DNA of 64,000 nt. Source: Muscardinus avellanarius. Lineage: Eukaryota; Chordata; Mammalia; Rodentia; Gliridae. Positions 1 through 46,484 of this stretch are shown piece by piece; position 1 is the stretch's first letter, and each line of letters begins with the position of its first letter. The translations under genes were made by a program, and so were the position numbers. The notes under the pieces were generated by a model. The model was not told the origin of the DNA. It saw only the letters and a list, made by a program, of their open reading frames with translations, and did no database searches. The DNA lies in assembly GCA_963383645.1 (NCBI GenBank), contig OY726560.1, forward strand, positions 155,968,488 to 156,032,487, read 5' to 3'.

Positions 1-480
1 AAACACTATCAGCAGAAAAATAAAAAAAATGTAGACACAAGGGACAGAGAAAAAGAAGACTAGAAGAACAACCAGAGACCAGAAAAGAAACCAGCCAGCA
101 TTATGGCGGCAGAGCTGCGCCGGCGCCATCTTCCCTCACAGCACCAGGCTCCAGAGAGGAAAGGTAAATTAGGAGCTGAAGTGAGCAGCTGCGGATCATT
201 CGGGGGTAATTCATCAGTTCTTTCAGCGCAAAGAACGTCTAAAACACCCAGTGGCCAAGGTCATCACGCCTTCCAGGGACTCAGAACAGAGCTCTAAACC
301 TGAAAAGAAATACGCCAGCATCACGGCTGAGGACGTGGCAGCGGTGCCAGCAGTGGTGGTGAGTTCACCATGTCTGCAACTGCTCCAGATAAGCGCACAC
401 AATAACTGTAAGTGAAATTGCAGCCCCTAAAGGAGAAATCCCAGTATTGCACTCCCAGGGACTTGTGCAGCTTTGATAAT

Positions 481-682
481 CTCCCTGGGTCTGAGATTTT
501 GCAGTCCAACCCAGTGAAGGAGTAGCAGTGGCAGAGATACCACACCCTAGTCGCAGCTCCCCATGGGAAAACACCCAGCCTGTCACTCCCATGGTCTTGC
601 GTAGCCTCTATTAACTCCCCGGGTCTGAGGCTTTGCGATACAACCCAGTAAAGGAGTAGTGGTGACTGAAATTACCACAGAC
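481..682 (+). repeat. Duplicated block inside the L1 5' UTR of copy A
   Basis: A block of about 60 bp occurs twice, near 481-544 and 612-680. Both copies run from a ctccc-gggtctgag motif through caacccagtRaaggagtag to a polypurine GTG stretch. Copy C on the minus strand (about 45240-45440) carries both blocks; copy B carries only one. The arrangement recalls the tandem promoter monomers of rodent L1 5' UTRs, but I have no evidence of promoter activity. Confidence 0.6.
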
Positions 683-781
683 TGGAGATCCAGAGCACTC
701 TAAGTGAAGTGGTGGTGACCCAGGGAAGAACCCAGATAAGGCACAAATTTCTGAAATCATATAAAGAGGAACAATAGAGCA

Positions 782-1597
782 ATGAATGCCCACAACCCCA
801 TAATATCAGAACCTGATAACACAGAAATTCGGATATCTCCAGAAGATCAAATCAGGAATATAACTGTAGAAATAATACAGAACTTTTGAAAAGAATTTAG
901 AGAGAGTCTAAAAGAAATAAAGGATGCAATCATTGAGGTAAAGGCATCAATTCAAAGTATAAACAATTGATTAGACCACATGGAGAAGAGAATCTCCTAG
1001 AAGATGATCACTCCAAAAATGAATGCATAATTTATAACTTAGAAAAATATCCGACAGCAGGAATCTGACATTGAAGAAATATGGGCCCATTTTAAGAGAG
1101 CTAATCTAAGACTAATTGGAATAGAGGAGGGAAAAGAAGGTGAAACCAAAGGGATCAACAATCTCTTCAAGGAAGTAATAGCAGAAAAATTTCCAAACAT
1201 AGAGCAAGAGGTTGATACACAGGTCCAGGAAAATTATAGAACTCTGTTTAGACAAGATCAGAGAAAAGGTTCCCCATGCCACATAATTGTCAAAATGACC
1301 AATGTAGAAGCCAAGCAGAGAATCTTAAAGGCAACAAAAACAAAAGGCCAAGTGACATTCAGAGGCAAACCAATTAGAATCACTCCAGACTTCCCAAGCC
1401 AAGTCATGAGAGCCAGAAGGGCTTGGAGTAACATATTCCAAACTCTGAAAGAAAACAACTTCCAGCCAAAAAATTCCTACCCAGCAAAACTATCTATCAA
1501 ATTAGATGGGGAAATAAGAAGCTTCCATGACAAACAGAAACTGAAGGAATTTATGTCTTCAAAACTAGCACTAGAGAAAATACTCAAAAGAGATTAA
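782..1597 (+). pseudogene. L1 ORF1 (RNA-binding chaperone), inactivated, copy A
   Basis: ORF1p is the trimeric RNA-binding protein of L1 ribonucleoprotein particles. The start ATG at 782 (MNAHNP...) aligns with the starts in copies B (40351) and C (45137). The frame is broken by TGA at 887-889, TGA at 968-970, TAG at 998-1000 and small indels around 1000-1060. An open tail from 1295 covers the RRM/C-terminal region, with the ARRAWSNIFQTLKENNFQP and SYPAKLSIKLDGEIRSFHDK motifs typical of this domain. The frame stops early at 1595-1597 after ILKRD, where copy B continues for 24 more codons. A full protein cannot be made. Confidence 0.85.
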
Positions 1598-1712
1598 CTA
1601 TAAAGAAGAATTAGGTAACACACACCAGAACCAGAGAAACAAGATTTTCCATCCAGCAGACAACTAAGCAAAGAGGAATAAACAGTATTTCAAACAGAAA
1701 TAAAATCTTTAC

Positions 1713-1922
1713 ATGTTAGGAATTAAAAGTCATCTCTCAATAATCACACTGAATGTAAATGGCCTCAATTCCCCAATAAAAAGACACAAAGTGCCAAAAT
1801 GGATTAAAAACCAGAATCCATCCATCTGCTGCTTACAAGAAACACACTTTACAAGTAAAGAGAGTAACAAACTCAAGGTAAAGGGCTGGAGCAAGGTGAT
1901 TCATGTTAAGCAGCCATCCTAA
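1713..1922 (+). pseudogene. L1 ORF2 N-terminal endonuclease stub, copy A
   Basis: An open frame of 69 codons begins MLGIKSHLSIITLNVNGLN and includes CCLQETHF. These are the start of the L1 APE-type endonuclease with the catalytic Asn (in LNVNGLN) and Glu (in QETH). It ends abruptly at the inversion junction, so the remaining endonuclease, the reverse transcriptase and the Cys-rich domain are missing in sense orientation. The same stub with the same end is present in copy C at 43992-44201. Confidence 0.85.
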
Positions 1923-2480
1923 CAAATGTGAAGTAGTATTTCACTATAGTTTTTATTTGTATTTCCTTAATGATTAGTTATATTATGATAATGATGAGTG
2001 ATATTCATGTGTTTATTGGTCACATAAAAATCTTTTGTGATTCATTATCTATTTTAGTCTTTTACCTATTTCTAAATTGTATTGTTTGCTTTTATTGTTA
2101 TTAATTTTTAGGATTTCTATTTGGAATATTAGTATACCTTCAGATATAGCATTTGGAAATATTTTATCCCATTCTATCAGTAACTTTTAATTCTGTTTAC
2201 ATTGTCTGTGGATGTACAATTTTAAAACATTTTTATGACATTTGTTTGTTTATTCTTTTGTTGTCTGTGCCTTTGGAATCATATCCAAGAAATTACTGCC
2301 AATTTCAGTGTTGTGGATTTTTAATTTATTTTTATTTTTATTTTTTTTGGTGGTACTGGGGGTACTACTTGGGGTACTGATTATTGTAGCTTTATAATGT
2401 TTTAAATCAGAAAATGTACATCTTCTAGCTGTGTTCTTTTTCAAGATTGTTTTGGGTATTTATAGTTCATATTTCATGTT
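1923..2480 (-). mobile_element. Inverted L1 ORF2 3' segment within copy A
   Basis: Read on the minus strand this is late L1 ORF2: the stretch that includes atttcttggatatgattcc and continues to gttaggatggc. The orientation is opposite to the ORF1 and endonuclease parts just upstream. The same segment appears in copies B (about 41270-41990) and C (about 43380-43990). Confidence 0.75.
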
Positions 2481-2793
2481 AGGATAGATTTTTTTCTGAA
2501 ATAAATAAATAAATGTATGATAGTTTCACCTTTAAAAAAAAAAAGAAAAATTATCCTCTGGTAAGACAGAAAACAAAAAAGAAATATTGAAAAGTTATCT
2601 CTAAGTGATCAAATATTTGATATCAGACAAATACATCTGTTATGTGAGATTATCATTGTTAATTTTTGATAAATTGCTATAATATTGAAAAAATAAAGCT
2701 ACATAACAAAAAATAAAAAAGAAGTAGAATAAAAAAATAAAAGAATTCTTAAAGAATATTTTAATCACTCATGCTTTGTTTTGTTTTTGTTTT

Positions 2794-3002
2794 TTATTTT
2801 TGTACTGGGGATTGAACCCAGAGACATTCTACCTCTGAGCTACATCTCCACCCCTTTTAAATTTGTTTTGTTTTGTTTTGAATCAGGTTCTCAATAGTTG
2901 GTGAGAGTCTCTGTCCATTGCTGAGGCTGCCCTTAAACCTGTGATCCCCTTGTCTCAGCCTCTCAAGTACTGGGATTACAGCATATGTCACCATGCCTGG
3001 CT
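2794..3002 (-). mobile_element. B1-dID SINE, older type
   Basis: The dID half (ggggattgaacccagagaca..., then gagctacatctccacccc) lies on the left and the B1 half ending ccatgcctggct on the right, giving minus orientation. It is fairly diverged; the linker is a TTTTG-rich stretch at 2855-2880. Confidence 0.8.
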
Positions 3003-3198
3003 GGAGTTCACTTTTGATTAGTAGTAGGTAGGAATCTAGTTTTGTTTTTCCTGTATACAGTAAGCAAGTTTTCCCAACCTTGTCAATTAAAGTAGGTTGT
3101 CCTGACCATGTTGGTTTGTGGTGGCCCTTAGATCCTGTGTTAAGGACAGGGATCTGTCTCCATGCTGCAAGTTGGCCTGCTCTATGATGATACCACAT

Positions 3199-3405
3199 TT
3201 AGCCACACGTGGGGGCATGGGCCTTTAATTTTTGGAGGCTAAGACAGGAGAATCACAGGCTCTAAATCAGCCTCAGCAACTTAGTAAGGCCCTTGGTAAC
3301 CTAACAAGACCCTGTTTCAAAATAAAAAATGAAAAGACCTGGAGGTATAGCTCAGAAATAGAATGCCCCAGGGTTCAATCCCCAGTGCCCCTGCCCACAA
3401 TGATA
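3199..3405 (+). mobile_element. B1-dID SINE, diverged
   Basis: The B1 half starts near tagccacacgtgggggcatg; the dID half has a readable A box (tatagctcagaaatag) and B box (gggttcaatcccc). The 3003-3198 sequence before it and 3406-3675 after it show no feature I recognise. Confidence 0.8.
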
Positions 3406-3902
3406 CCACACTTTCTGTCTTTGGAATAAGTTCTAATAAATTTAGTGCATCTTTTTTTTTTAGAGTTAATTTAGCCAATCATGAGTTCCCCTTCCACCCC
3501 ATTAATAAATCAGATAAATATATTGAATTCCTAAAAAAAATTCCAGAAGAAACTCTGAGGTTGCTCTGAATTTATTCTGCAATTTGGAGACAAAGATTTG
3601 GGAAAGTATTCTCCTGCATATTCTTAAATTAATCTTTGTAGATGGTGAGCTGTAGGCATGCTGGCACCATGTATTTAAAAAAGTTTTTCTTTATTCGTTG
3701 GATGGCTTCGGTGCCTTGTCAAAAGCCAGCGATTCGCTGGTCTTTTCCACTGAACAGTTTGTCTTATGCTAAAGCCACAGGGCTGTGGTGACTGTAGCAC
3801 TACAACGTAACTTGAAGTAAAGTGGGGTGCATCTTCAATTGTGTTTGGGCTGTTTTAGGTTCTATATATTTCCATACATGTTTAGAATCAGTTTGACAAT
3901 GT

Positions 3903-3905
<3 letters not shown>

Positions 3906-3947
<42 letters not shown>
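3906..3947. repeat. (CA)n microsatellite
   Basis: About 21 uninterrupted CA units lie inside the ancient L1. Confidence 0.97.
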
Positions 3948-3950
<3 letters not shown>

Positions 3951-4528
3951 CCAGTTTGGAGTTTGAATGCAATTTGGATCAAATCCATAGATTAATTTAA
4001 GAAGTCTTCACAATCTGAAGTCTTCCAATCTGACGAATATATTAGTCCATTTAGGTCAGTCTGACATTATTAACTCTTAGTAGTGCTTTATAGATTTTAG
4101 CATATAGGTCTCGCTCTTACTCTTATATTTATCCTTCAGTATTTTATGTTTTTTGATACTATTGTAAGTAGCATTTAAACATTTTTATTTTACAGTTGTT
4201 CCTGGTTGATACGAGGAAGTCCATACATTTAGAAAATCTTGACTCTGTCATTTGCAAGTTTGTTGATTTTGCTTATTGATGTCAGTAACTTTTTTTGTAG
4301 TTCCGTATATAGATGATCATGTCGCCTGTTCCTGAAGACAGCTTCGCACACTGTAATCACAGTTAGTATTACTACTCTATTGCATTAACTAAAGCAGCCA
4401 GCACAGTGCTTAAAAAGAACACAAGTGTGGGAAAAGACTTTTTTTTAGTATTAAGTATTAATATTAAGTATTAGCTGTAGGTTTTTTCTAGATACACTTC
4501 ATAAAGTTGAGAAAGTCCCCTTTAATTA

Positions 4529-4530
<2 letters not shown>

Positions 4531-4586
<56 letters not shown>

Positions 4587-4676
4587 AACTGAACCCCACT
4601 AAGTTTCTGAGGTTGGTCTTGAACCTGTGACCCTCCTGGCTACTGGGTTTACAGGTGTGCACCACCACACCAAGCT
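4531..4676 (-). mobile_element. (TG)n followed by truncated SINE
   Basis: A run of about 24 TG units (4531-4579) adjoins a worn minus-strand SINE remnant (ggttggtcttgaacctgtga ... gtgcaccaccacac). The microsatellite probably grew from the SINE tail region. Confidence 0.65.
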
Positions 4677-5187
4677 TAATTTATAGTTTGATGAAACTTT
4701 TGCTCCTGAATGAATGTTTAATTTCCTTAAATGTTTCTTCTAAACCTATTGAGATGACCATATGGTTTTCATCTTTATTGGGCTTGATGTAGTAAATACA
4801 TTGATTTTTTAATGCTATATTAAACTTGTGTTCCTGGGATATAAATGGAAATCAATAAGATGAAAAGCCAATAGTGGAAATAAATCAATAAAACCAAAAG
4901 CTAGTTGAGTTTTGCTTATGCTTGCTAGTCAATTAAGGTCTAGGGCACTTATAAGGCTCATATTATCCTCTTTACACTATACAGGTTATCCTTGATAAAT
5001 TATTCTTTTTATATGATAATGAGTTCAATTTACTAATATTTGTTAAGGATCTTTTGCATGTATATTAATAAAGCATATTTTAATTTCTTGTAACATATTT
5101 GCTTGGCTTTGGTCTCAGAGTAATTTCGTTCTCATACAATGAGTTGGAAAGCATTTCTTCCTTCTCTATTTTCTTTGTATAAAATTG

Positions 5188-5545
5188 CTGTTGTTAAAGT
5201 AAATTAAAATGGAGACAAAACCTGAAGATCCCTGAGCAGACACCGGGTAGGCCTCAGAAGTGACCTAGACCTTGTTTGATTTGCAAATATAAGCAAAACT
5301 CAACATGAGCTATTTCTTGTAAATGACCGCATTGAAGCAAAAAACAGAACTTGAACCCAACCAATCAGAAACACCCAATCAGTTTAAAATTATACCATTA
5401 GGGACTTGCAAAGGGAAACACCATATAAGGCAAGAGCATCACCGAGGCCAGTAATGATTCTTATTGGTCTTCTGCATTTTCTCCTGCGTCTTACATGATC
5501 ATCAGAGAACTAGGCCTAGTCTGATGTTCTCGAATTCATGAATTA
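5188..5545 (+). mobile_element. Probable solo ERV-type LTR inserted in L1
   Basis: L1 sequence stops near 5187 and resumes near 5560. The intervening ~355 bp is unrelated and has promoter-like order: two CCAATCAG-type boxes (5361-5368 and 5374-5381) and a TATAAG box at 5424-5429. It begins with TG. I cannot place the 3' CA end or a short target duplication with certainty, and no internal viral sequence is present. Confidence 0.45.
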
Positions 5546-6131
5546 CTTCTAACTCATACTCTTTAAAATTTTTATTGTGCCTCAGATTTTTTTTAGTATT
5601 ATTCTATTCTTAGAAGTTAGATAAAATTCCCCAGAGAAGGCATATGGACCTAGTTTTCTTAGTACTTTTTTTAAAGTTCAGTTTTTAAAATTGTTATAGA
5701 GCTGTGCAGATTTTCTATTTTTTCTTGTGAAAGTCTTGATAATTTGTGTCTTCCAAAGGTGTGACCATTTTGTTCAGATTTTCTAAATCATTGGCTTAAA
5801 GTTGTTCCTAATATTCCCTTGTTATTTCAGCATCTGTCATGATACCCCTCCCCTCTTTCATTCCTGACATTGATGATGACCCACCTATCTTTATATTTGA
5901 CCACTGTAACCAGAGTTTTATCATTTTATCAATGCTTTCAAAGAACTAGTTTTTGGTTTTATTGATCTATTCCCATTATTTGTTTTGTATTGTATTGATT
6001 TCCATTTCTACTTTTATTATTTTTTTCCTTTTATTTTCTTTTGTAGATTCTTGGAAAGCTTGGGTCACAAAGATTAGGCCATTATTCTTTTCTAAAACAA
6101 TAATTTTAAACTACACATTTTCCTCTAAACA

Positions 6132-6140
<9 letters not shown>

Positions 6141-6180
<40 letters not shown>
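6141..6180. repeat. (AT)n microsatellite
   Basis: About 20 AT units run directly into the T-run that is the antisense poly(A) tail of the adjacent SINE. Confidence 0.95.
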
Positions 6181-6181
<1 letters not shown>

Positions 6182-6199
<18 letters not shown>

Positions 6200-6404
6200 G
6201 TGGTACTAGAGGTGGAGATAGATCAGGGGCTTTTCTACCTCCAGGCTATACTCCTAGACCCATTTCATACTTTATTTGGAAACAGGGTCTCACTGAGTTG
6301 CTGAGAGCCTCAGTAACTAGCTGAGGCTGGCTTCGAACCTGTGTGATCCTCCTGTCTCAGCCTCCCAAACTCTGGGATTACAAGCGTGCACCACGACACC
6401 TGGC
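6182..6404 (-). mobile_element. B1-dID SINE (long-linker type)
   Basis: An 18-base T-run marks the antisense tail. The body has the ctacctccaggctatactcc version of the dID half and an intact B1 half ending cacctggct. The host sequence aaacattgtttt is found at 6127 and again, diverged, at 6406, as expected of a target duplication. Confidence 0.85.
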
Positions 6405-6435
6405 TAAACGTTGTTTTTTGTTTTGTTTTGTTGTT

Positions 6436-6618
6436 TTTGTTTTTTTTGGTAGTACTGGGGTTCCTGGAAGCCCTTCTACCTCCGGGCTACACTCCCAGAC
6501 CTATTTTATTCTTCTTTTTTATTTGGAAACAGGGTCTCTTAAGCCAGCACGGCTGGCTTTGAGCCTGTCTCCGCCTCCCAAGCGTGGGGATTACAAGCCT
6601 GTGCCACCACGCCTGGCA
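6436..6618 (-). mobile_element. B1-dID SINE, type II
   Basis: This belongs to the shortened subfamily marked by ggggttcctggaagcccttc in the dID half and cttaagccagcacggctggc in the B1 half. It is followed by another copy of the aaacattgttttaattt target sequence at 6619, so two SINEs landed in the same short host site. Confidence 0.85.
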
Positions 6619-6767
6619 AACATTGTTTTAATTTCAATGTCCCCAAGTTAGGATGTTACATTTTCATTATCATTCAATTTGCAATATTTTCTGATTTCTC
6701 CCATAATTATTTCTTTACCCCAGGGTTTACTTAGAAGTGCACTATTTAATATCAAAATGTTTGGGCA

Positions 6768-7001
6768 TAGCCAAGTGTGGTGGTACATGCCTATAATTTT
6801 AGTACTTAGGAGGCTGATAGGAGGGTTGCAGGTTCGAGGCCAGCCTCAACTACTTAATGAGGACCTCCACAACTTAGTGAGACCCTGTTTCAAAATAAAA
6901 AATAAAATAGGGCTGAGGTTGTAGATCAGAGGAAGAATTCTCCTGTGTTCAAATCCCAGTAACACACACACACACACACACACATACACACACACACACA
7001 C
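6768..7001 (+). mobile_element. B1-dID SINE with (CA)n tail
   Basis: The B1 half starts gccaagtgtggtggtacatg. The dID half is diverged but ends tcaaatcccagtaacacac, and its tail has become a CA microsatellite (6961-7001, one CATA interruption). Confidence 0.8.
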
Positions 7002-7524
7002 GGCATTTTTCAGATATCATTTGTATTGATTTCTGATACAATTCTATAGCAGTCAGAGAACATATTATGAACAATTCAAATTTATTGAGATGGAATTGGA
7101 TGAATTTCCCATGTCTACCTGGAAAGAATTTGTTTTTTATAATTGCTGGGTAAAATTTGCTATAAATACCCATCAACTTATCTTTTGTTGTTAGTGCTAT
7201 TATTTGAGTCTGGATTTTATCTCCTAGTCTGTAATGGAGAGTGGACTATTAAAATAGCTGATTATCCTTGTCTTCTCTTTTTTCTCAACTTCTCCATGGA
7301 GTTCCTTGGTTTTTTAATGTGTTCTTACACTCAGCAACGACTGAGTGCAAGCACATTTAGGACTGCTCTGCCTTCCTGACTAATGGCCTCTTTTATCATT
7401 AAACATCTGCCCCTTTACCTACTATAAGATCTTCTCTTTAATTAGTTAATTTATACTATACGTTAAGATCAGGGTATAACTCTTTCTCTCCATTTACTTT
7501 TAACCTACAAGTACCTTTATAGCT

Positions 7525-7772
7525 ATTTATTTATTTATTTATTTATTTATTTATTCATTTGTTTATTTTGCGGTACTGGGGATGGAACCCAGGGGCATTC
7601 TACCTCCGAGCTACACCATCAGCCCTATTTTTTTATTCTTTATTTTGAAACAGGGTCTCACTGAGTTGCAGAGGGCCTCACTAAGTAGTAGCTGAGGCTG
7701 GCCGCGAACCACGATCCTCCTGTCTCAGCCTCCCGAATGCTGGGATTACAAGCGTGCGCCACCACGCCCAGC
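7525..7772 (-). mobile_element. B1-dID SINE with (TTTA)n tail
   Basis: The TTTA run at 7525-7560 is the antisense tail. The body is complete and only mildly diverged (gcggtactggggatggaacc to ccaccacgcccagct). Confidence 0.9.
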
Positions 7773-7845
7773 TTTTTAGCCTTATATTTAAAGTGAAACT
7801 CTTACACAGAACAAATAGTTTGGTCTTGCTAGGTTTTTAGTCCAG

Positions 7846-8310
7846 TGAAATTATAAAGAATACATTACCCTGAAACACCCAGAAACGAGTGGGAAAGTGG
7901 GGATCATTTTAATAACCATTTGCTAATTTGGAATCAAGAATTCAAATCCAATTATCAGATGGCTTGAATTTACTAAACTATTTCTTAACCTCTAATATCA
8001 CAATTTCTTGAAAATCCACATCCATGAATATGTCATAGGCAACAGGGAGAAAGTCACTAAATTTCAAACCCTTGGGGGGTGGGGGGCAAAACAACCAGCA
8101 AAAAAGGGTCTGATTGTTTTGTTTCTATTTAGACCTCTGCCTCTTAGTAAAGATGTGCTCGCTCCTTGGATAATTAAGTACTCTGGTGATAATAAGGGCT
8201 AAGATGCTGAAGTAAAGAGGTGAGATTTCATTATTTTCCAATAACCTGAAGTCTTTCGGCTGTGGTGCTCTTAAGATCAATACTTTTATCTGTGTGAGGG
8301 CAGCATACAT
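7846..8310. other. Unique sequence, nothing recognised
   Basis: I see no ORF with coding character and no recognisable repeat. A G-rich run lies near 8070-8088. Confidence 0.5.
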
Positions 8311-8700
8311 TCATTCTGTTACATCCAGCATCTCCGAAGAGGCCATTGTTTTGCACAGAGTCGCACGGGGCTCCGTTAAATAATGAATTCTCCAATGGGC
8401 AGAAAGTGCTCCAAAAATTGCTAATTCTTTTGCAGCCAGCATTAATGAATATTCATTTTCAACAGTTTTAATGAATATTTTTTAAAGAAGAAAAATCGCC
8501 CTGACAACAATATTTTTATTATTTCTACCATAAAAATGCCAAGACCTGACTCCTGTTCAGGTAATCAATTTCCATTAAATACTAATAACAGCTATAAGGC
8601 GAAGTCTCTCGGCTTCAACAAGTCAACAGTTGTGCATAAGCTCCAATTTGCATTAAAATAGTCATCTCAAGATACAAATCCTGAGATCAGATACACTGCT
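8311..8700. other. Candidate conserved noncoding element
   Basis: This block has no repeats. It is AT-rich without low complexity and dense in homeodomain-like TAAT cores, including two gaatatt-containing blocks near 8446-8480. It has an ACAAT SOX-like motif near 8505 and a perfect POU octamer ATTTGCAT at 8646-8653. Such composition is typical of developmental enhancers. This is inference; no alignment was possible. Confidence 0.35.
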
Positions 8701-8754
8701 AATGTACATGCAAGAGACATGGCTTCTTTTTTTCTTTTTACTTTTTTTGTGGGC

Positions 8755-8802
8755 TTTCTTTCTTTCTTTCTTTCTTTCCTTCCTTCTTTCTTTCTTTCTT
8801 TC
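8755..8802. repeat. (TTTC)n microsatellite
   Basis: About 12 TTTC units with two CCTT interruptions form the antisense tail of the SINE that starts at 8807. Confidence 0.95.
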
Positions 8803-8806
8803 TCCT

Positions 8807-9240: not shown

Positions 9241-9285
9241 ACCCATGCTTGTAACCATAACCAAGCATGGACTCAGGTTATGGTT
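9223..9285. repeat. Two adjacent perfect inverted repeats at a SINE end
   Basis: Arms acaagcatggg (9223-9233) and cccatgcttgt (9242-9252) are perfect 11-bp complements with an 8-base loop. Arms aaccataacc (9253-9262) and ggttatggtt (9276-9285) are perfect 10-bp complements with a 13-base loop. A third copy of the first arm (caagcatgg) sits in the second loop. Confidence 0.85.
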
Positions 9286-9453
9286 TCTTATACCACGTGT
9301 TGTGTGCTCTCCTCTCACACACCTAATAGGACGATGAGGGATTATCACAGAATTCTTACATATTAGAATTTTAAATTTCGCCTTTGTATCCATCAGCATT
9401 CTTGCAGCCATAATCTAAAGATTGATCATGTACCTTAGAAGAAAGAAGATTTT

Positions 9454-31221: not shown

Positions 31222-31222
31222 T

Positions 31223-31261
<39 letters not shown>

Positions 31262-31450
31262 TTTTAATTTATTTTTATTGGTGCATTGTAATCATACATC
31301 AGATTGGAATACAAGACTTGAGAGGATATACAAGCACACATCATCCAATTAGCCCTCATCCAGTCCCCATCCCATTCCCTCCCCCTCCCTCGATCCCATG
31401 CTTGTTTGGTGATTAACTTTGATACATGTGTTTATGTACCTCCTGCTTTT
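31222..31450 (-). mobile_element. L1-like 3' UTR with (TAAA)n tail
   Basis: The plus strand starts with (TTTA)n at 31222-31263, then ttattggtgcattgtaatca, then a C-rich tract and gattaactttgatacatgtg. The same 3' UTR occurs antisense at 43186-43375 and in sense orientation at the end of copy B (42180-42344), so this is the lineage's L1 3' end. Confidence 0.8.
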
Positions 31451-31660
31451 TAAAGAGGCTCCATCCTCCCCTATTCCATACCCTCTGATTGGTCACCTTA
31501 ATTGCTTCACTATAGGGCCCTTTCTATAGCTCGACCACTTTCTGTTGCCCGTTTCCTCCTAGTTATTGCTGATTAGGGGAAGCATCTGGTTTTAATTTTC
31601 TGTGATATTTCTCTGTTCATGCCACGTTGCAAATACCGATCCCACTCTTGATGGCCCCAG

Positions 31661-32590
31661 TTGTGGCCTGGCTACCCGGTGGACTAATCAGACCTCGCTG
31701 GTTCAAGCAGCAGCCTTGCCTCATGGGAGGCCCCGGTTCTGGCCTCGCTGGCCCTGACACTGGCCTAACCCCTCAGCTGGCTCCGATCCCAGCCTCGGAG
31801 GCCCCAGCACTGGCCTTGCCTCACGGCAGGCTCCGATGTTAGCCGATGGCCCCGGCATCGGCCTAACCCCTCGGCAGGCTCCGATCCAGGCCTCGGAGGC
31901 CTCAGTAGCGGCCTTGCCTCACGGAAGGCTCCGATGCCAGCCAGTGGCCCCGGCACCGGCCTAACCCCTCAGCAGGCTCTGATCCTGGCCTCGGAGGCCC
32001 CAGCATCGGCCTTCCTCATGGCAGGCTCCGATCCCGGCCTCGCTGGCCCCAGAACCAGCCTAACCCCTCGGCAGGCTCCGATCCCGGCCTCGGAGGCCTC
32101 AATAACAGCCTTGCCTCACGGAAGGCTCCGATGCCAGCCGTTGGCCCCAGCACTGGCCTGACCCCTCGGCAGGCTCCGATCCCGGCCTTGGAGGCCCCAG
32201 CACTGGCCTTGCCGCACAGCAGTCTCCGATCCTGGCCTCGTTGGCCCCGGCACCGGCCTAACTCCTCAGCAGGCTCTGATCCCAGCCTCAGAGGCCCCAG
32301 CACCGGCCTTGCCTCATGGCAGGCTCTGATCCCGGCCTCGCTGGCCCCAGCACCGGCCTAACCCCTCGGCAGGCACTGATCCCAGCCTCGGAGGCCTCAA
32401 TAATGGCCTTGCCTCACGGAAGGCTCCGATGCCGGCCGTTGGCTCCGGCACTGGCCTAACACCTCGGCAGGCTCCAATCCCGGTCTCGGAGGCCCCAGCA
32501 CCGACCTTGCCTCATGGCAGGCTCCGATCCCAGCTTTGCTGTGTCCATCGCCGGCCTCACCTCTCGGCAGGCTCTAATCCGAGCACCCTC
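31661..32590. repeat. GC-rich VNTR, 50-bp unit with higher-order structure
   Basis: About 18 units of 48-50 bp alternate between type A (ggcctaacccctcggcaggc start) and type B (ggccttgcctcacggcaggc start). They form 100-bp pairs. Sub-variants A' (ends ggcctcaataa/agtagc) and B' (gatgccagccgttggccc) recur every second pair, giving a roughly 200-bp higher-order unit. CpG density is high. Both strands stay open because stops are rare in the unit, so the ORFs here carry no coding evidence. Confidence 0.93.
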
Positions 32591-32594
32591 TTCG

Positions 32595-33150
32595 CCCAAC
32601 TATTTGTCCCATGTTCTCGAGGGTGCGTGGTGGTAGCATTCTGCCTCTGGGGTCATTACTTCAAAAGTTTCAGGTGTAATGTATCAGATCTCTGCCTCCC
32701 CTGAGTACTGGCCACTGCCATTGCCACTGCCTCCACCATTTCAAATCTTTCCCAAGCTCTCTTTTCACTCTGAATCTTGTCCAATCTTCCTAAGTATGCG
32801 CGACGATAGCATTCAACCTTTGGTGTAATTTCTCCAAAATAAATAAATAAATAAATAAGGTTGGTAGGCTCCGATTTCTGCTTCTCCTGAATACAATTCT
32901 CCACCGCCAATGCGGAGACCGCTTTCAGCACCGCCATTCTCCTTGGTCTCCGCTAAAGTCTCTCTCCTTACAGGTGATGTCCAAGATTCTTAACAATGTA
33001 GAGAAGAAGCAGTCCTCCTTAGCGGGGAATTTTTCCAATAATTCCAGTTCATTTGGATAAGTTTTTTCTGCATCTCCAGTATCCTGGCATCCGCCACCTC
33101 CTTGACCCCACTCCGAGATTTTCCGTTTTTCTTTTTCTTTTCCTTTTTTA
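32595..33150 (-). other. Linker of the composite element with ~185-bp imperfect tandem duplication
   Basis: On the minus strand a block from ggcggtgg through gtattcaggagaagcagaaa and gaatgctatcgtcgcgcata recurs about 185 bp later as gtactcaggggaggcagaga and gaatgctaccaccacgcacc. Fragments of open frame exist (93 codons at 32656-32937, 63 codons at 32990-33181), but an (AAAT)n run at 32836-32857 breaks the reading and I recognise no domain. A viral gag-like leader is possible but unsupported. Confidence 0.5.
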
Positions 33151-33152
33151 TA

Positions 33153-33389
33153 GGGTCCTTCCGGGTGGAGAGGGGGGTCACCTAGGGGCGCCCCACCAGC
33201 ACCTGCCCACCCACCCAGAGTCGGGGGCCAGGGGTCCTTCCGGGTGGAGAGGGGAGTCGCTTAGGAGCGCCCCGCCAGCGCCTGCCCACCCACCCAGGGT
33301 TGGGGGTCCAGGGTCCTTCTGTGTGGAGAGGGGGGTCACCTAAGGGCGCCCCGCCAGTGTCTGCCCACCTGGCCAGGGTCAGGGGCCCA
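33153..33389 (-). repeat. Three perfect-length 79-bp tandem repeats
   Basis: The units are 33153-33231, 33232-33310 and 33311-33389, each beginning gggtccttc on the plus strand and containing gcgccccgccag. They are about 85-90% alike by eye. On the minus strand they are followed at once by ctataaaaaagg, so they sit where upstream promoter repeats of a retroelement would sit. Confidence 0.95.
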
Positions 33390-33547
33390 GGGCCCCCCCC
33401 TTATTCTTTATTTGGAAACAGAATCTCACTGAGTTGCAAAGGGCCTCACCAAGTAGTAGCTGAGGCTGGCCACGAACAGTGATCCTCAGTCTCCCAAATG
33501 CTGGGATTACAAGCGTGCGCCACCACGCCTGGCCATTGTTGCACTTT

Positions 33548-35874: not shown

Positions 35875-35923
<49 letters not shown>

Positions 35924-37582: not shown

Positions 37583-37777
37583 CGTAAGCCGGGCATGGTG
37601 GCACATGCCTGTAATCTCAGTGCTTGGGAATGGAGACAGGAGATCACAGGTTCAAGACCTGTCTCAGCAATGTAGTGACACTGTTTCAAAACAAACAAAA
37701 AACAAAAATAGAGGGGGGGTGTAGCTCGGAGGTAGGAGGTCCCTGAGTTCAGTTCCCAATACCACAAAAGAAAAGAA
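37583..37777 (+). mobile_element. B1-dID SINE
   Basis: The B1 half (gtaagccgggcatggtggca) and dID half (ggtgtagctcggaggtagga, gagttcagttcccaatacc) are both present. The tail is followed by an impure A/G-rich run to 37812. Confidence 0.87.
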
Positions 37778-38849
37778 AAAGAGAAAAAAAGGAAAAAAGG
37801 GAAAGAAAAAAATCCTGCATGGCCATGCTGTTAAGACATCGGGTGATAACAGATCTCTTCTGATCTTCAGGGGATATATATTAATCTAGAGTTTCTTCAG
37901 GAATTATTTAGAGTTAAAGGTGTTCTTAAGAGTCACCTTGCCCCAGCCCAACACCACTGCAGAAGACCACAGCTATGGCTGATGCTGGCAGATTCTGAGG
38001 CCAGAGGAGGTAGACATCTAAGAGGGGGGAGATGGGAGAGAAAGACACCCAGAAGGGCTGAGAGCCAGACTTACTTTGCCCAAACCCCCGAGTGGTGTCT
38101 AACATGTACAATGGATGGAGACTTAGAATAACCGCCCCCCCCCAAAAAAAAAAAAAGCAGACAGAAATGAAGGGGCAAGGCCTACTTTGAAAGACACACT
38201 TGTTCTGATAAAATTTGCTATGTCTTTGAATGGGTTTCCAGACCCAGTCAGAGCATGAGTGTAGAAGTAAGCAGAAACCTCACTGGCTAGAGACACCAGA
38301 GGGAAGAATTTGAGCTTTTCAGCAGCTGGAAATTTAGGGGACCACAAAGAAGAAGAGTCCCAAAATCTGAGTGCAACTGTGTCTACTTGTTGGATAATGC
38401 AAGCATGGTATTTTTTTTTAACCATTTGGGAGGTACCTGTAAAGGCACTGGACATTTGTCTGTACCACACATACTGTTACTGATTTAGTGGCTCACACTG
38501 TTGATGGGGCAGGCAGCAGCCAGGCTTGCTGGATCTTTTTCAGAGTCTCTGACACCTGGGCAAACTCTATCACTAGATGCAGAAACAACAAACAGACATA
38601 AACCATGTAACTACCTTTCATAAATGCTTAAGGTCAAATCTATATTATAAATTGTGTGTTCTCTATCATGTCTGTTGGTTCTTGCCATTGTTTGGAAATC
38701 ACATTCTGGCTGACACACCACCATTCAAACAGAAAGTATAAGAAAAGTGAAGCACATGGGAAAAATCTACTAGTCAAAGAGAATTTCTAGAAACCAAGAT
38801 GGACAGTTCAAAATGGCAACAGGTGTTTTGCAGCAGGATGATATAAGAA
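37778..38849. other. Unique sequence, nothing recognised
   Basis: A 115-codon minus-strand ORF (38123-38470) runs into a poly-T-derived Phe/Gly stretch and has no recognisable domain. A degraded retroelement is possible. Confidence 0.4.
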
Positions 38850-40350
38850 GTATAAATATGGGCATAATTATGGGTGTTATAAGTGTAGTGTAATAACAGA
38901 ATTGCAAATACATGAAACAAAATGGACAGGACTAAAAGGAGAAGTAGAAGAGTCTATGACCATAGTTGGAGATTTCTATATTCTTATTTTAGTATTGGTC
39001 TAAGAAATCAGGAAAGATATAGAAGATTTAATACTATCAACCAATTAGACTTAAGTTGACATTAATTCCATTTATTAAGAGCAGAATACACATTATTTTC
39101 AGGGACATATGGAACATTTACTAAGATAAACCATATGGTGGGCCATAAAACAAGTCTCAGTAAATTAAAAAAGATTGAAATAATACAGACTATGTTCTCT
39201 GACTATGACAGAATGAAACTGGAAATCAATAACAGAATCTCTGGAATGTCCTCAAGCATCTGGAAATTAAACCAAACATTTTAAATAGCCCATAATCAAG
39301 GAAGACATTTTAAGAGAAATTAGAAAACATTTTAAACTGAATGAAAAACACAACTTGTCAAAATTCATGATACATAGCTAAAGCAGTGCATGCAGGGAAA
39401 TGAGTAGCTCTAAATGCTTATATTAGAAAAGAAGCTCTCAAATCAATCCCCTGAGCTTCTGCCTAAAAAAACTAGAAATAGAAGAAAAAGAAACCCAACT
39501 CTAAGTAGCAAGAAGCAAATAATGTAAAAGGGAAATCAATGAAATAGAAAACAAAGCAACAAAAAAACTTACAAAAAATATTGAAACTAAAAGATTGTTC
39601 TTTGAAAATCTTCATAAATTGAATAAACTTCTACCTAAGCTGATTACAAAGAGAGACTGAGAACAGAATGAGCCAATATCATGGATGAGGCAAAGGACAT
39701 AGATACAGATTCTATGGGCATTAAAAATTAGGAATCTGAGGACTTCTGGGAAGATGGCGACGGAGAAAAGTGGGGCTTACGAGCCCCGCTAACAACCAAT
39801 CTCTATTACCACAAAATCAGCGCCTTTCATAGCCAAAAAACACCATCAGCAGAGAAACAAAGAGTGTAATTTCAAGGGACAGAGAAAAAGAGGGCTGGAA
39901 AAACGAGACACGAGAAACCAGACTGCAGTGCTGCAGCCAGAGCCGCGGCATGAAGCGGCGGGTGCCATTTTCCCTTGCAGCACCAGGCTCCAGAGAGGAG
40001 GGGAACTCATAACGGAGCTCAGAGCCAGAGAGGAGATAAGCCGGCCTCATGCCCAAGGACGCGGCAGCAGCGCCTTACTGCCGGCGGCAGCGGTGACCTC
40101 ACCAGACGGCACCAGACCAACACACCATAGGAGAATGCCCAATCTGGCACCCCCACATGGTCTAAAGCAGCCTCGATTGACTCTCAGGGTATGAGACTCT
40201 GCGATACAACTCAGTAAAGGAGTAGTGGGGACCGAGATACCACAGACTCGAGATCCAGAGCACCTTAAGTGAAGTCATAGTGACCCAGGGAAGAACCCAG
40301 AGAAGGCACAAACTTCTGAAATCATGGGAAAGAGAAATAACAATGGAGCA

Positions 40351-41241
40351 ATGAATGCCCACAACCCCACAACATCAGAACCTGATAAAACAGATATTCA
40401 GAGATTTCTAGAAGATCAAATCAGGGAAATAACTGTAGAAATAATAGAGGTGTTTTGAAAAGAATTCAGAGAGAGCCAAAGAGAGATAAAGGATGCAATT
40501 AATGAAGTAAAGGCCTCAATTCAAAGTACAAACAACCAATTAGACCACATGGAGAATAGAATCTCGCTCCTAGAAGATGATCATTCAAAAAATGAACGCA
40601 TAGTTTCTAATTTAGAAAAAAAAATCTGACAGCAGGAATCTGACATTGAAGAAATATGGGCCCATTTTAAAAGAGCTAACCTAAGAATAATTGGAATAGA
40701 GGAGAGAAAAGAAGGTGAAACCAAAGGGATCAACAATCTTTTCAAGGAAGTAATAGCAGAAAATTTTCCAAACGTAGAGCAAGAGGTGAATACACAGGTC
40801 CAGGAAACTTACAGAACTCCCTTTAGACAGGATCGGAGAAGAGGATCCCCACGCCACATAATTGTCAAAGTGACCAATGTGGAAGCCAAGCAGAGAATCT
40901 TAAAGGCAACAAAAACAAAGGGCCAAGTGACATTCAGAGGCAAACCAATTAGAATCACTCCAGACTTCCCAAACCAAGTCATGAGAGCCAGAAGGGCTTG
41001 GAGTAACATATTCCCAATTCTGAAAGAAAACAACTTCCAGCCAAAAATTTTCTACCCAGCAAAACTTTCTATCAAATTAGATGGAGAAATAAGAAGCTTC
41101 CATGACAAACAGAAACTGAAGGAATTTATGTCTTCAAAACCAGCGCTAGAGAAAATACTCAAAGAAATCAACCACAAAGAAGAAATAGGTAACACACACC
41201 AGAACCAGAGAAACAAGATTTTTCATCCAACAGACAACTAA
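40351..41241 (+). pseudogene. L1 ORF1, copy B, two stops
   Basis: This is the best-preserved ORF1 in the window: 296 codons in one frame from ATG 40351 to TAA 41239-41241. It is interrupted only by TGA at 40456-40458 and TGA at 40627-40629. The N-terminal part has heptad-like spacing (coiled coil). The region after 40786 carries the RRM and C-terminal domain (RQDRRRGSPRHIIVKVTNVE, ARRAWSNIFPILKENNFQP). The TGA at 40456 is at the same codon as the TGA at 887 in copy A. Confidence 0.88.
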
Positions 41242-41574
41242 GATTGGTTATCTGTGGAGATTTATTATTTATGTTAGTCTTTTACCTATCTCTACATTGT
41301 ATTGTTTGCTTTTATTGTTGCTAATTTTTATTATTTCTAGTTGGAATATTAATATACCTTCAGATATAGCATTTGGAAATATTTTATCCCATTCTATCAG
41401 TAACTTTTAATTCTGTTTATATTGTCTTTGGATATACAATATTTTTTATTTTTTAGGGAGTTTATTTACCCTTTTGTTGCCTGTGCCATTGAAATCATAT
41501 CCAAGAAATCACTGCCAATTTCAATGTTGTGAGGTTTTATGACCCAGATTTTCTACTAAAAGTTTATAGTATTA

Positions 41575-41576
<2 letters not shown>

Positions 41577-41631
<55 letters not shown>
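41577..41631. repeat. (AT)n microsatellite in copy B
   Basis: About 26 AT units in the inverted ORF2 segment. Confidence 0.96.
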
Positions 41632-41633
<2 letters not shown>

Positions 41634-42620
41634 GTCTTTTATCTATTTTGAGTTAATATTTATATATGTGTTAGGTAAGGGTCCAATTTTATTCTTTTTC
41701 ATGTAAGTATTATTTTTAACAATATTTAGTTAAAAGATTAGTACTTCCTCCACCAAATGTTCGTGGAAACCTTTTCAAAATTAACTTGACAATATATGGA
41801 AGAATTTATCTCTAGGCTTTTATTTAACTCAAATGGTTTATATATCTGCCTTTAGAACAGTACTACACTGTTTCAATTATTGTAGCTTTATATGGTTTGA
41901 AATCAGAAAATATACATCTTCTAGCTTTGCTCTTCTTCGAGATTGTTTTGGGTATCTAGAGTCCATATTCCATATCAGGATAGATTTTTTCTGAAAAATA
42001 AATAAATAAATGTATGATAGTTTCACCTAAAAAAAAAAGAAAAAATATTCTCTGGTAAGAAAGAAAGCAAAAAGAAATATTGAAATGTTATCTTTAAGTC
42101 ATCAAAAGCTTGGTATCAGACAAATGAAACTGTTATGTGAGATTATCATCGTTAATATTGGATAAATTGCTATAAAACTAGATGTCAACCACTAAGCCAA
42201 ACATGGGAAGGAGGGATGGGGAGGGAACGGGGTGGGGTTCAGGTAGGGGCTAACTGGGCAATGTGTGCATGTATGTCTTCAAAAGTATTTTCTTTATACC
42301 ATTATGATGTATGAATACATTGCACCAATAACAAATAAATTAAAAAAAATTAGGAATCATTATGAACAACTTAATACCAACGAGTGTGACAACCTAGAAG
42401 AAATGTAAAAATTCCTTGGAAGACACAAATTGTAAAAAATGAGCTCAATGAAAAATAAAAATGTAAAGTCTTATATAAATGAAAGAAATTTAAAAAATTC
42501 CTGGGAAGAAAATTGTAGGTATTCATGACTTTGGAACTAAATTGTATCAAATATTTAAAATAAATGATACCAATCCTACAGAAAATCTTTTTGAAAACAA
42601 GGGAGAGAGAAAATACTCTC

Positions 42621-42770
42621 AATTTATTTTATTGGGTTCATTGTAATTTTATATCATATTGGGATAGAGAATGTTAGAAAAATACATATATACAAAATCC
42701 TTTTTACCCTCCCCACCGGGCTCCCCTTCACTCTCACCCTGCAAATCTTTGAGATTGGAAATGCCAATTT
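42621..42770 (-). mobile_element. L1 3' UTR fragment
   Basis: Antisense 3' UTR pattern: ttattgggttcattgtaatt, then a C/T-rich tract (ccctccccaccgggctcccc). It is a short insertion in the host L1. Confidence 0.65.
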
Positions 42771-42852
42771 TGTATATGTTCATGGCATTATTTCTACTAT
42801 TATATTCTTTATGACTTATTTTATAAGACCAGAATTACCCTGATATCAGTGC

Positions 42853-42966
42853 CAAATGAAGACAGAAGAAGGTGAGGAAGAAGAGAAAGAGGAAGAAGAG
42901 GATGAAGAAGAGGAGGAGGAAGAGAAGGGTGACGAGAAAGAGGAGGAGGAGGAAGAGAGGGAGGAG
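42853..42966. repeat. GAA/GAG/GGA purine tract
   Basis: About 110 bp of almost pure purine occur inside the ancient L1, encoding a Glu-rich chance ORF on the plus strand. Confidence 0.93.
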
Positions 42967-43379
42967 GACCCATGGACCAGTAGCATATGTGAACATAAAA
43001 GCAAAAATTATCGACAAAATATTATAAAGTCTACTATAGAGGAATATGCACATACTCCAAAGCAAGGTTGATTCATCATTAGAAAATTAATCACTGAAAA
43101 TTATAATATTAACAGAATTAGAAGACCATAGGATAATCTTCATGGAAACAGCAAAAACATTTGAAAAAATTAAACATCTGTTCTTTTTTGTTGTTAAATA
43201 CATTTTTATTGGTGCATTTTAGTCATATATCTTAATGAGGTAAAAAAAACTTGTGGAGATAAACATGCACACATCACTCAGTCAGCCCCTACCCAATCCC
43301 TAACCCTTCCCTTCCCCTCCCTCCTTTCCATGCTTGGATTCCTGATTAACTTTGACATGTTTGGTTTTTTTTCTTCCAT

Positions 43380-43990
43380 ATACGGTCAAGTTATTTTTGA
43401 CAAGGTTTCGAAGAACATTTGGTGAAGGAAATAATAATCTTTTCACTAAATATTGCTGAAAAATAATAACTACATGAAAAAGAAAAAAATTGGGCCCTTA
43501 CCTAACACCATATACAATTATGAACTCAAAATAGATAAAAGACCTAAATGTAAAATTTAAGACTATAAACTTTTAGAAGAAAACCAGGGTCATAAAACTT
43601 CACAACACTGAAATTGGCAGTGATTTCTTGGATATGATTCCAAAGGCACAGACAACAAAAGAATAAACAAACTTCATAAGAAATAGAAAAAATATTGTAC
43701 AGCCAAAGACAATGTAAACAGAATTAAAAGTTACTGATAGAATGGGATAAAATATTTCCAAATGCTATATCTGAAGGTATATTAATATTCTGAATAGAAA
43801 TCCTAAAAATTAATAACAATAAAAGCAAACAATACAATTTAGAAATAGGTAAAAGACTAAAATAGATAATGAATCACAAAAGATTTTTATGTGACCAATA
43901 AACACATGAATATCACTCATCATTATCATAATATAACTAATCATTAAGGAAATACAAATAAAAACTATAGTGAAAAACTACTTCACATTT
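43380..43990 (+). mobile_element. Inverted L1 ORF2 3' segment within copy C
   Basis: The plus strand reads late ORF2: cggtcaagttatttttgaca, ttgggcccttacctaacacc, atttcttggatatgattcca, ending gttaggatggc at the junction. The orientation is opposite to the rest of copy C. Confidence 0.83.
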
Positions 43991-43991
43991 G

Positions 43992-44201
43992 TTAGGATGG
44001 CTGCTTAACATGAATTACCTTGCTCCAGCCCTTTACCTTGAGTTTGTTACTCTCTTTACTTGTAAAGTGTGTTTCTTGTAAGCAGCAGATGGATGGATTC
44101 TGGTTTTTAATCCATTTTGGCACTTTATGTCTTTTTATTGGGGAATTGAGGCCATTTACATTCAGTGTGATTATTGAGAGATGACTTTTAATTCCTAACA
44201 T
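43992..44201 (-). pseudogene. L1 ORF2 N-terminal endonuclease stub, copy C
   Basis: The 69-codon frame is identical in predicted protein to the stub in copy A, with LNVNGLN and QETH, and is cut at the same codon by the inversion junction. Confidence 0.87.
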
Positions 44202-44316
44202 GTAAAGATTTTATTTCTGTTTGATATACTGTTTATTCTTCTTTGCCTAGTTGTCTGCTGGATGGAAAATCTTGTTTCTCTGGTTCTGGTGTGTATTAAC
44301 TGTTTCTTCTTTGTAG

Positions 44317-45137
44317 TTAATCTCTTTTGAGTATTTTCTCTAGTACTGGTTTTGAAGACATAAATTCCTTCAGTTTCTGTTTGTCATGGAAGCTTCTTAT
44401 TTCCCCATCTAATTTGATAGATAGTTTTGCTGGGTAGGAATTTTTTGGCTGGAAGTTGTTTTCTTTCAGAGTTTGGAATATGTTACTCCAAGCCCTTCTG
44501 GCTCTCATAACTTGGTTTGGGAAGTCTGGAGTGATTCTAATTGGTTTGCCTCTGAATGTCACTTGGCCTTTTGTTTTTGTTGCCTTTAAGATTCTCTGCT
44601 TGGCTTCTACATTGGTCATTTTGACAATTATGTGGTGTGGGGAACCTTTTTCTCTGATCCTGTCTAAAGGGAGTTCTATAAGTTTTCTGGAGCTGTGTAT
44701 CGACCTCTTGCTCTATGTTTGAAAATTTTTCTGCTATTATTTCTTTGAAGAGATTATTGACCCCTTTGATTTCACCTTCTTTTCCCTCCTCTATTCTGAT
44801 TATCCTTAGGTTAACTCTCTTAAAATGGGCCCATATTTTTTCAATGTCAGATTCCTGCTATTTAATTTTTTTCTAAGTTATAAATTATGCATTCATTTTT
44901 GGAGTGATCATCTTCTAGGAGTGAGATTCTCTTCTCCATGTGGTCTAATCAATTGTTTATACTTTGAATAGAGGCCTTCACTTCAATGATTGCATCCTTT
45001 ATTTCTTTTAGATTCTCTCTAAATTCTTTTAGAAAGTCCTGTATTATTTCTACAATTATATTCCTGATTTGATCTTCTGGAGATCTCTGAATTTCTGTGT
45101 TATCAGGTTCTGATATTATGGGGTTGTGGGCATTCAT
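44317..45137 (-). pseudogene. L1 ORF1, inactivated, copy C
   Basis: The start (MNAHNPIISEP) gives 62 codons, then a TGA at the codon that is also TGA in copy A (968-970). The RRM/C-terminal part is open again from 44619 to 44317, ending ILKRD-stop exactly as in copy A. The codon that is TGA at 887 in copy A and 40456 in copy B is Leu (CTA) here. Confidence 0.85.
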
Positions 45138-46484
45138 TGTTCTATTGTTGTTCCTCTTTCTATGATTTCAGAAATTTGTGCCTTATCTGGGTTCTTCCCT
45201 GGGTCACCACCACTTCACTTAGAGTGCTCTGGATCTCCAGTCTGTGGTAATTTCAGTCACCACTACTCCTTTACTTTGTATCGCAAAGCCTCAGACCCGG
45301 GGAGTTAATAGAGGCTACGCAAGACCATGGGAGTGACAGGCTGGGCATTTTCCCATGGGGAGCTGTGACTAGGGTGTGGTATCTTTGCCTCCACTACTCC
45401 TTCACTGGGTTGGACTGCTAAATCTCAGATGCAGGGAGATTATCAAAGCTGCGCAAGTTCCTGGGGATGCAGTGCTGGGATTTATCCTGTAGGGTCGCAA
45501 TTTCACTTACAGTTATGTGCATGTTGATCTGGAGCTGTCGCAGGCATGGTGAACTCACTGCCACTGCTGGCAATATGGCACTGCTGCCATGCCCTTGGCC
45601 ATGAGGCTGGTGTATTTCTTTTCTGGTTTTGAGCTCCATTCTGAGTCCCTGGAAGGTGTGATGAGCTTGGCCACTGGGAGTTTTAGGCGTTCTTTGCACT
45701 GAAAGAACTGCTGAATTACACACGAATGATCCACAGCTGCTCACTTCAGCTCCTGTTTACCTTTCCTCTCTGGAGCCTGGTGCTGTGAGGCATGATGGCG
45801 CTGGTATGGCTTCGCAATGCGGGCTGGTTTCTTTTCTGATCTCTGGTTGTTCTTCTAGTCTTCCTTTTCTCTTTCCCTTGTGTTTACATTTTTTATTTCT
45901 CTCCTGATAGTGTTTTCTGGCTATGAAAAGCGCTGATTTTGTGGCAATAGAGATTGTGTGTTAGCGGGACTCATAAACACTGCTTTTATTGGTCGCTATC
46001 TTCCGGGAAGTCCAAATATCTGTTCTTGAAAACTCTCTGAAACCAGGAAAGGAATGAAATTTCCTCAGAATGCTGAAGGGGATTTATGCAGAATCTGTAT
46101 CTAACATCAGACTTAGTGATGAAATGGCCAACACTTTCCTTTTAGAATCAGGAACAGATCAAGGATGTCTGCTGTCATCCCTTCTGTTCATATGGTACTA
46201 GAAATCTTAAAACTTGCAGTAGGGTTCAGGAAAAGGCATAAAGACTGGAAAGGAAAAAGAAGCCCACCTTATTCTAGAATGACATGATTTTGCACATAGA
46301 AAATCTTAAGGAATTGGTTATTTTAGCAAGATCCCAAAACACAAGGTAGATATTCAAGTGAAAGTGGCATTTTTATATACTAGCAAAAAACATTTGGAAA
46401 ATGAAAATAATTTTATTATTTTCTTCTTGTTACTTACTTTTGGGTTAATTTGTTAATTTATATTAGTATAAAAATATGAAATAA

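Follow-up and report, generated by a model that had tools for sequence, protein, structure and literature searches.

HAL1 elements encode ORF1p only and have several independent origins among mammals (PMC5753468), and the pig has a Repbase entry of this kind, HAL1_Ssc (PMC6501411). L1 lineages have also swapped their 5′ and 3′ untranslated regions (UTRs) for unrelated sequences (PMC5753468), and SVA and LAVA are composite non-autonomous elements moved by L1 (PMC7353768). Here, I report an analysis of three L1-derived copies (A, B, and C) in a stretch of 64,000 nucleotides from the rodent Muscardinus avellanarius, hereafter the window (assembly GCA_963383645.1, contig OY726560.1, positions 155,968,488 to 156,032,487, forward strand). 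Each copy has an L1 ORF1 region followed by an antisense segment, the cassette, where ORF2 would be expected. It is quite probable that A, B, and C represent HAL1-like families that kept ORF1, lost ORF2, gained an antisense cassette from an ancient L1 together with a downstream module, and were mobilised in trans, and that the cassette later entered a young autonomous L1.

Dispersed families of ORF1-bearing copies

It was found that A and C share one junction between the sense and the antisense part, CATG joined to TTAAGCAGCCATCC. A 20-mer over this junction is present at two places in the window, both with 0 mismatches (shuffling predicts 0.00), so the identity of the two junctions, pointed out in a first-pass annotation of the window, holds. 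The genome to which the window belongs (2.50 Gb, 104 contigs) was searched; its whole-genome counts are loose first-look candidates, and the scored places are the best 40 for each of the junction and boundary queries. An 81-mer over the A/C junction gave 1,203 candidates, and 40 of the 40 scored places, which are spread over many contigs, match 81 of 81 bases at 98–100% identity. The junction of B (41241/41242) differs, as it leads from the ORF1 stop codon directly to the antisense part; it is fixed in further copies too (797 candidates, all 40 scored places matching 96/96 bases at 98–100%). Since both junctions are fixed in dispersed copies, the rearranged elements themselves were copied, as the annotation had proposed. 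Scans of a viral contig set and a genome contig set gave 0 matches to the A/C junction.

From the 40 scored A/C-junction places, 30 were taken as 3-kb loci, and 20 of the 30, including copy A, were extended to about 8 kb. Seventeen of the 20 (A included) start within the first 18 bases of the 5′ end of C, while L034, L039, and L050 are 5′-truncated. Target-site duplications (TSDs) were tested in the 18 copies whose 5′ end could be placed (16 extended loci and the window copies B and C), with a score of at least 10 as the threshold. This was reached by 10 of 18 copies versus 3 of 306 cross-pair controls. Copy B has an exact 14-bp TSD, AAAAATTAGGAATC, at 39723–39736 and 42345–42358, and the TSD of copy C is identical at 13 of 14 positions (43172–43185 and 46014–46027). 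Both beat all of their own cross-pair controls, which bears out the private 14-bp duplications claimed for them. Copy A has a 15-bp TSD, ATATTTTAATCACTC, recognised by eye from the flanks, with its 3′ copy at 2756–2770 and its 5′ copy outside the window. No extended homology was seen when the 600-bp flanks upstream of 15 copies were compared, only short out-of-register matches (at most 206 columns, 70–88%). Private TSDs and unrelated upstream flanks thus indicate retrotransposition, not duplication.

Spread of the junction by local or segmental duplication is extremely improbable. All that speaks for it is that the B-type lies near the A/C-type in the window and in three loci (L023, L027, and L040), whereas the many contigs, the private TSDs, the unrelated flanks, and the differing poly(A) ends speak against it. 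A junction confined to its two places in the window, with long homologous flanks, had been named in advance as the outcome that would overturn the idea of a copied element, and what was found was a junction with over a thousand candidate places and 15 unrelated upstream flanks. It is therefore supported that A, B, and C belong to large, dispersed L1 families which bear ORF1, lack ORF2, and were themselves copied. As for the nearness itself, the window (39737–46013) and 3 of the 30 A/C-junction loci (L023, L027, and L040) have a B-type copy that is either a few kb at most from an A/C-type copy or nested inside one; the pairs are convergent in the window, L027, and L040.

Copies A and C are 92.7% identical over 2,341 aligned columns, and A and B are 89.1% identical over 1,120 columns, in pairwise matches. 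The order and orientation of the parts in all three copies were reproduced by the pairwise matches and by a three-way alignment. The layout in the first-pass annotation thus stood, except that the endonuclease stub, given there for all three, is found in A and C and not in B. Copy A had been placed at 1–2700; its strand and parts were right, but its true 5′ end (locus L032) lies 86 nt before the window and it ends at about 2755, where its 15-bp TSD follows.

Copy A (A/C-type, plus strand, 1 to about 2755) begins in the window with part of the L1 5′ UTR (1–758), followed by the ORF1 region (759–1667, stop codon TAA at 1665–1667), whose frame is broken in this copy, and by an ORF2 endonuclease stub (1713–1907) corresponding to residues 1–63/65 of L1 ORF2p. 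The stretch from the 5′ UTR to the stub is about 85% identical to two autonomous L1s (about 78% in its outermost part), and the stub is 90.5–93.3% identical to ten young L1 loci over 112–173 shared bases. The stub/antisense junction, CATG joined to TTAAGCAGCC and common to A and C, lies at 1905–1912 on the plus strand. The first part of the cassette (1910–2330, minus strand) has no protein-level L1 match in copy A, whereas copy C and other copies did match. An insert at 2331–2379, absent from B and C, breaks the A/B and A/C matches; by eye, it is T-rich and SINE-like. The remaining cassette and a non-L1 module (2380–2690, plus strand) match B at 41876–42175, and this stretch also occurs in the autonomous L1 3′ UTR. 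Copy A lacks the L1 3′ UTR end; it stops at an alternative poly(A) site just past an AATAAA in the downstream module.

Copy B (B-type, plus strand, 39737–42344) has its ORF1 region at 40324–41241, with the stop codon TAA (41239–41241) joined directly to the cassette (41242–42000, minus strand), which contains a (TA)n expansion at about 41580–41632. The downstream module (42001–42178, plus strand) is also found in autonomous L1, and the L1 3′ UTR end (42179–42344, plus strand) has a counterpart in one autonomous L1. Positions 1660–2351 within B are 88.6% identical to the autonomous L1 3′ UTR over 700 columns. Copy C (A/C-type, minus strand, 43186–46013) is a short 3′ variant. It consists of the ORF1 region (44245–45163, minus strand), again with a broken frame, the endonuclease stub (44007–44201, minus strand), the cassette (43371–44008, with the L1 sense on the plus strand), and the L1 3′ UTR end (43191–43361, minus strand), the last placed by pairwise matches. 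The C stub is 91.7–94.6% identical to the ten young L1 loci, with one 42-base piece at 90.5%. The ORF1 regions are 91.0% (A), 92.8% (B), and 90.5% (C) identical to autonomous ORF1. The sense ORF2 content is limited to residues 1–63/65 in A and C and is nil in B. With ORF1 so close to the autonomous one and at most 65 residues of sense ORF2, the proposal of a non-autonomous, ORF1-containing family akin to HAL1 was upheld.

Origin of the antisense cassette

Read backwards, the cassette resembles residues of about 856–1120 of L1 ORF2p at roughly 30–50% amino-acid identity with many breaks, and it carries many stop codons and frameshifts. At the DNA level, the cassettes of four A/C-type copies are 91–95% identical to one another and 81–86% identical to that of B, the (TA)n included; in a 506-base core, the mean difference between A/C-type and B is 9.3%. 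The cassette is 57–59% identical to the two sense ORF2 fragments of the same loci that align with it, and 58–60% identical to ORF2 of the ten young L1 loci. In contrast, the adjoining sense stub is 90–95% identical to the same ten L1s over 112–173 shared bases. Since the antisense segment stands at 57–60%, versus 87–95% for the sense parts, it did not come from the same lineage, and it must already have been ancient when it was joined to the stub. Judged from these identities, the antisense part was captured from an L1 that was ancient and decayed, and is not a flipped ORF2.

The first-pass annotation had supposed that the elements were built by inversion, and this claim fell, as the gap between the antisense segment and the stub rules out a plain inversion of ORF2 of the same L1. 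A flipped ORF2 part whose element was then amplified would be viable only if both flanks had later been replaced via recombination with young L1s. This is very unlikely, given the low identity of the antisense part to every aligning sense ORF2 (the two fragments and the ten young loci) and its many stops and frameshifts. The geometry does fit an inversion with deletion: the antisense codons of about 856–1120 have sense codons 1–63 on one side and, on the other, sense codons that begin at about 1136 in the loci L028 and L030.

Under the captured-fragment reading, the L1 5′ UTR and ORF1 would have been kept, while ORF2 would have been lost beyond its first 63 codons or so in the A/C-type and entirely in the B-type. 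The antisense fragment of an older, decayed L1 and the short non-L1 module would have been captured in place of ORF2, possibly through a template switch or when transcription ran across an old L1 nearby. A single origin of the chimera is most likely. Its transcripts would stop in the L1 3′ UTR or at an internal poly(A) site, of which there are several, and the poly(A) tails and TSDs suggest insertion in trans by the endonuclease and reverse transcriptase of autonomous L1s.

The 3′ ends of the copies vary. C-type copies end with the L1 3′ UTR after a short cassette; B, L037, and L044 end after the whole cassette and the module; A and L033 end at the AATAAA site; and L049 and L040, as well as L031 and L034 by eye, end still earlier. 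Among the copies with unusual ends, the TSD score is at least 10 in L033, L040, and L049 and is 8 in L031. L1 priming is poly(A)-based, and the lack of a single required 3′ end among the copies fits such priming. The several 3′ ends with TSDs (L033, L040, L049) would also be expected if a 3′-truncated L1 at one source locus had been transcribed into adjacent L1 debris and alternative 3′ processing had made the families. L028 and L030, which continue past the L1 3′ UTR into a common sense L1 fragment despite their differing 5′ ends, point the same way. As a full account, this is somewhat unlikely; its source locus is putative, and it is compatible with the capture of an ancient fragment as the first step of that history.

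The cassette in autonomous L1s

Is the cassette confined to the non-autonomous copies? From 26,730 reverse-transcriptase candidates, 150 were scored, ten young loci were fetched, and the 3′ UTR was read in two. Many of the 150 scored loci have open frames of 1,278 amino acids, and the ten young loci are mutually 95.7–99.9% alike. Their ORF1 counterpart carries the Pfam domains PF02994 and PF17490. In both of the young autonomous L1s read, the 3′ UTR contains the right-hand part of the cassette, which begins 36 nt past the ORF2 stop codon as measured in one of them; in L065, the cassette is followed by the module and the 3′ end as in B. A 130-base query over the boundary between young ORF2 and the cassette gave 871 candidates, with 40/40 scored at 100%. 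From their sequences, these cassette-bearing youngest L1s look intact and able to jump today. The 5′ UTR of the young autonomous L061 and L063 has a GC-rich stretch of imperfect repeats, which is not seen in A, B, and C.

The order of events was assessed from several sides. First, the locus L041 holds a cassette-free L1 3′ end with a short 3′ UTR that is inserted into an A/C-type copy; in the final 160 bases ahead of the cassette boundary, the inserted end is 95% identical to young L1. Second, a cassette-free boundary query gave 1,647 candidates, and 40 of 40 scored places match at least 170 of 171 bases at 96–100%. A query on the ORF2 end of cassette-free L1, short of the boundary, was not decisive (765 candidates, 40 scored at 95–100%). 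Third, the left part of the cassette, which is not in young L1, has 1,321 candidates versus 1,203 for the A/C junction, a loose comparison since the two queries are not equally long and about 50 bases of the left one are also found in B. Fourth, a midpoint-rooted tree of 32 cassettes places both young L1s within the B clade (support 1.000 for B with the young L1s, 0.835 for the window copy B with the young L1s, and 0.812 for the other B copies). Fifth, in L028 and L030, whose 5′ ends differ, the cassette gives way to a sense ORF2 end and a 3′ UTR that lacks the cassette, beyond which both have one more L1 piece in common. Together, these observations favour capture first and transfer to the autonomous 3′ UTR later. 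Thus, the likeliest order, as far as these sequence comparisons tell, is that the antisense cassette was present first in non-autonomous elements and later in autonomous L1. The right-hand cassette would then have moved to the 3′ UTR of the now-youngest autonomous L1, most likely from the B-type lineage. The chances seem evenly balanced that non-autonomous relatives were the source of most of the 3′ UTR of the youngest intact autonomous L1; in that case, an ORF1-only element would have captured the antisense part of a dead L1, which diversified there and was passed on to the autonomous lineage, and this lineage expanded with it.

A simpler scheme does without any passage of the cassette from non-autonomous elements to autonomous ones: an autonomous L1 with a long cassette in its 3′ UTR may have lost ORF2, giving the A/C-type and the B-type, after which the young lineage lost about 270 bp at the left end of the cassette. 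The presence of the cassette in the young autonomous 3′ UTR agrees with this. However, the count of the left cassette part barely exceeds that of the junction, although 5′-truncated autonomous copies should add many (both counts are loose). Cassette-free L1 3′ ends are abundant, one of them younger than an A/C-type copy, and in L028 and L030 the cassette precedes the ORF2 end instead of following it. Such simple deletion is therefore unlikely.

Two further observations concern these unusual loci. L028 and L030 (with L066 and L067) are two A/C-type copies with differing 5′ truncations that have the same cassette, followed by about 20 bp, the sense ORF2 C-terminus, and the 3′ UTR; past the 3′ UTR, both continue into another sense L1 fragment, and the fetched sequence contains no poly(A). 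The ancient antisense fragment starts near residue 1120 of ORF2, and the sense ORF2 takes up again near residue 1136; capture alone does not account for positions that nearly coincide.

The state of ORF1 was also analysed. Among 20 copies, the private non-CpG changes in ORF1 comprise 232 non-synonymous and 92 synonymous ones, and the shared non-CpG changes comprise 48 non-synonymous and 33 synonymous sites. The ratio of the private changes is near the neutral expectation of 2.77, for which the antisense region in 27 copies served as the source. By Fisher tests, the shared changes differ from the private ones (p = 0.043) and from the expectation (p = 0.005), and the private changes versus the expectation give p = 0.45. 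Simple ratios of non-synonymous to synonymous rates (0.46 for the pooled copies against their majority; 0.24 and 0.28 for the A/C majority against two autonomous ORF1s) were set aside because they mix selection on autonomous ancestors with decay. At the autonomous start codon, A (759–761) and C (about 45161–45163) read ATA with one base missing, which speaks against a working ORF1; B and autonomous ORF1 have an ATG there, and a second ATG lies downstream in A and C. An A-run in ORF1 ranges from 4 to 9 in length among the copies, so that a frameshift fixed throughout the family is at most a candidate reading. In A and B, a TGA at ORF1 codon 36 (counting from the second ATG) was considered as a family stop codon and rejected, as it reflects CpG decay of CGA in single copies. 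The substitution counts weakly hint that ORF1 may have remained in translation during the spread of the A/C family, a lead and not a result.

Several points weigh against the proposed history. Scoring the best 40 places is biased toward well-kept copies, and the candidate counts are loose. At the threshold used, 8 of the 18 copies have no clear TSD. The cassette-free 3′ ends were counted at the boundary only, and the non-autonomous L028 and L030 have such ends too; the sense ORF2 end after their cassette is not fully explained by capture followed by transfer. The nesting of the young L1s in the B clade depends on support of 0.81–0.84 and on midpoint rooting. The autonomous sample consists of the youngest L1s only, so that an older autonomous lineage with a long cassette could escape it. 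As for ORF1, copies share six changes that create a stop codon (four non-CpG, two CpG), and a count by eye puts the A-run at 9, the length that keeps the frame, in about 5 of 24 copies.

Comparison with known systems

No published description of such an L1 family was found among the titles and abstract openings listed, which is not proof of absence. Non-autonomous elements are usually viewed as derived from, and competing with, autonomous ones. If the proposed history is true, the tracing of a cassette from an ORF1-only family to an intact autonomous L1 would represent a flow of modules in the reverse direction. The L1 copies in the dormouse genome are young enough for dating each step. Moreover, the RNA of the young autonomous L1 itself would carry antisense sequence to older L1s.

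The window contains another composite element, which resembles SVA (31222–33392, minus strand). It has a GC-rich variable number tandem repeat (VNTR) at 31706–32574 with units of 50, 98, and 298 bp, a second, 79-bp array (33153–33392), about 200 bp of unrelated sequence, and then an L1 3′ UTR end with (TTTA)n. SVA and LAVA carry VNTR and SINE parts, as their names say, and are not known to have an ORF1. A, B, and C are likewise composite and non-autonomous but have an ORF1 region.

Twin priming yields L1 copies with opposite-strand segments. In contrast, the A/C-type and the B-type have another order of segments, a junction fixed in many copies, and segments of unequal age. The replacement of L1 UTRs by unrelated sequences is similar in that a new 3′ UTR segment was gained; here, however, the segment is antisense L1 and is also present in non-autonomous relatives. 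HAL1 is the closest system. Like HAL1, copies A, B, and C are L1-derived, contain ORF1 only, lack a functional ORF2, are multi-copy and dispersed, and have poly(A) and TSDs; by the published description of HAL1, they are HAL1-like. Measured against HAL1 descriptions only, they are set apart by the replacement of ORF2 with an antisense segment of an ancient L1 that is common to the autonomous 3′ UTR. Subject to the contents of Repbase and Dfam, what is new relative to HAL1 is thus the antisense cassette, together with its occurrence in the 3′ UTR of autonomous L1 as well.

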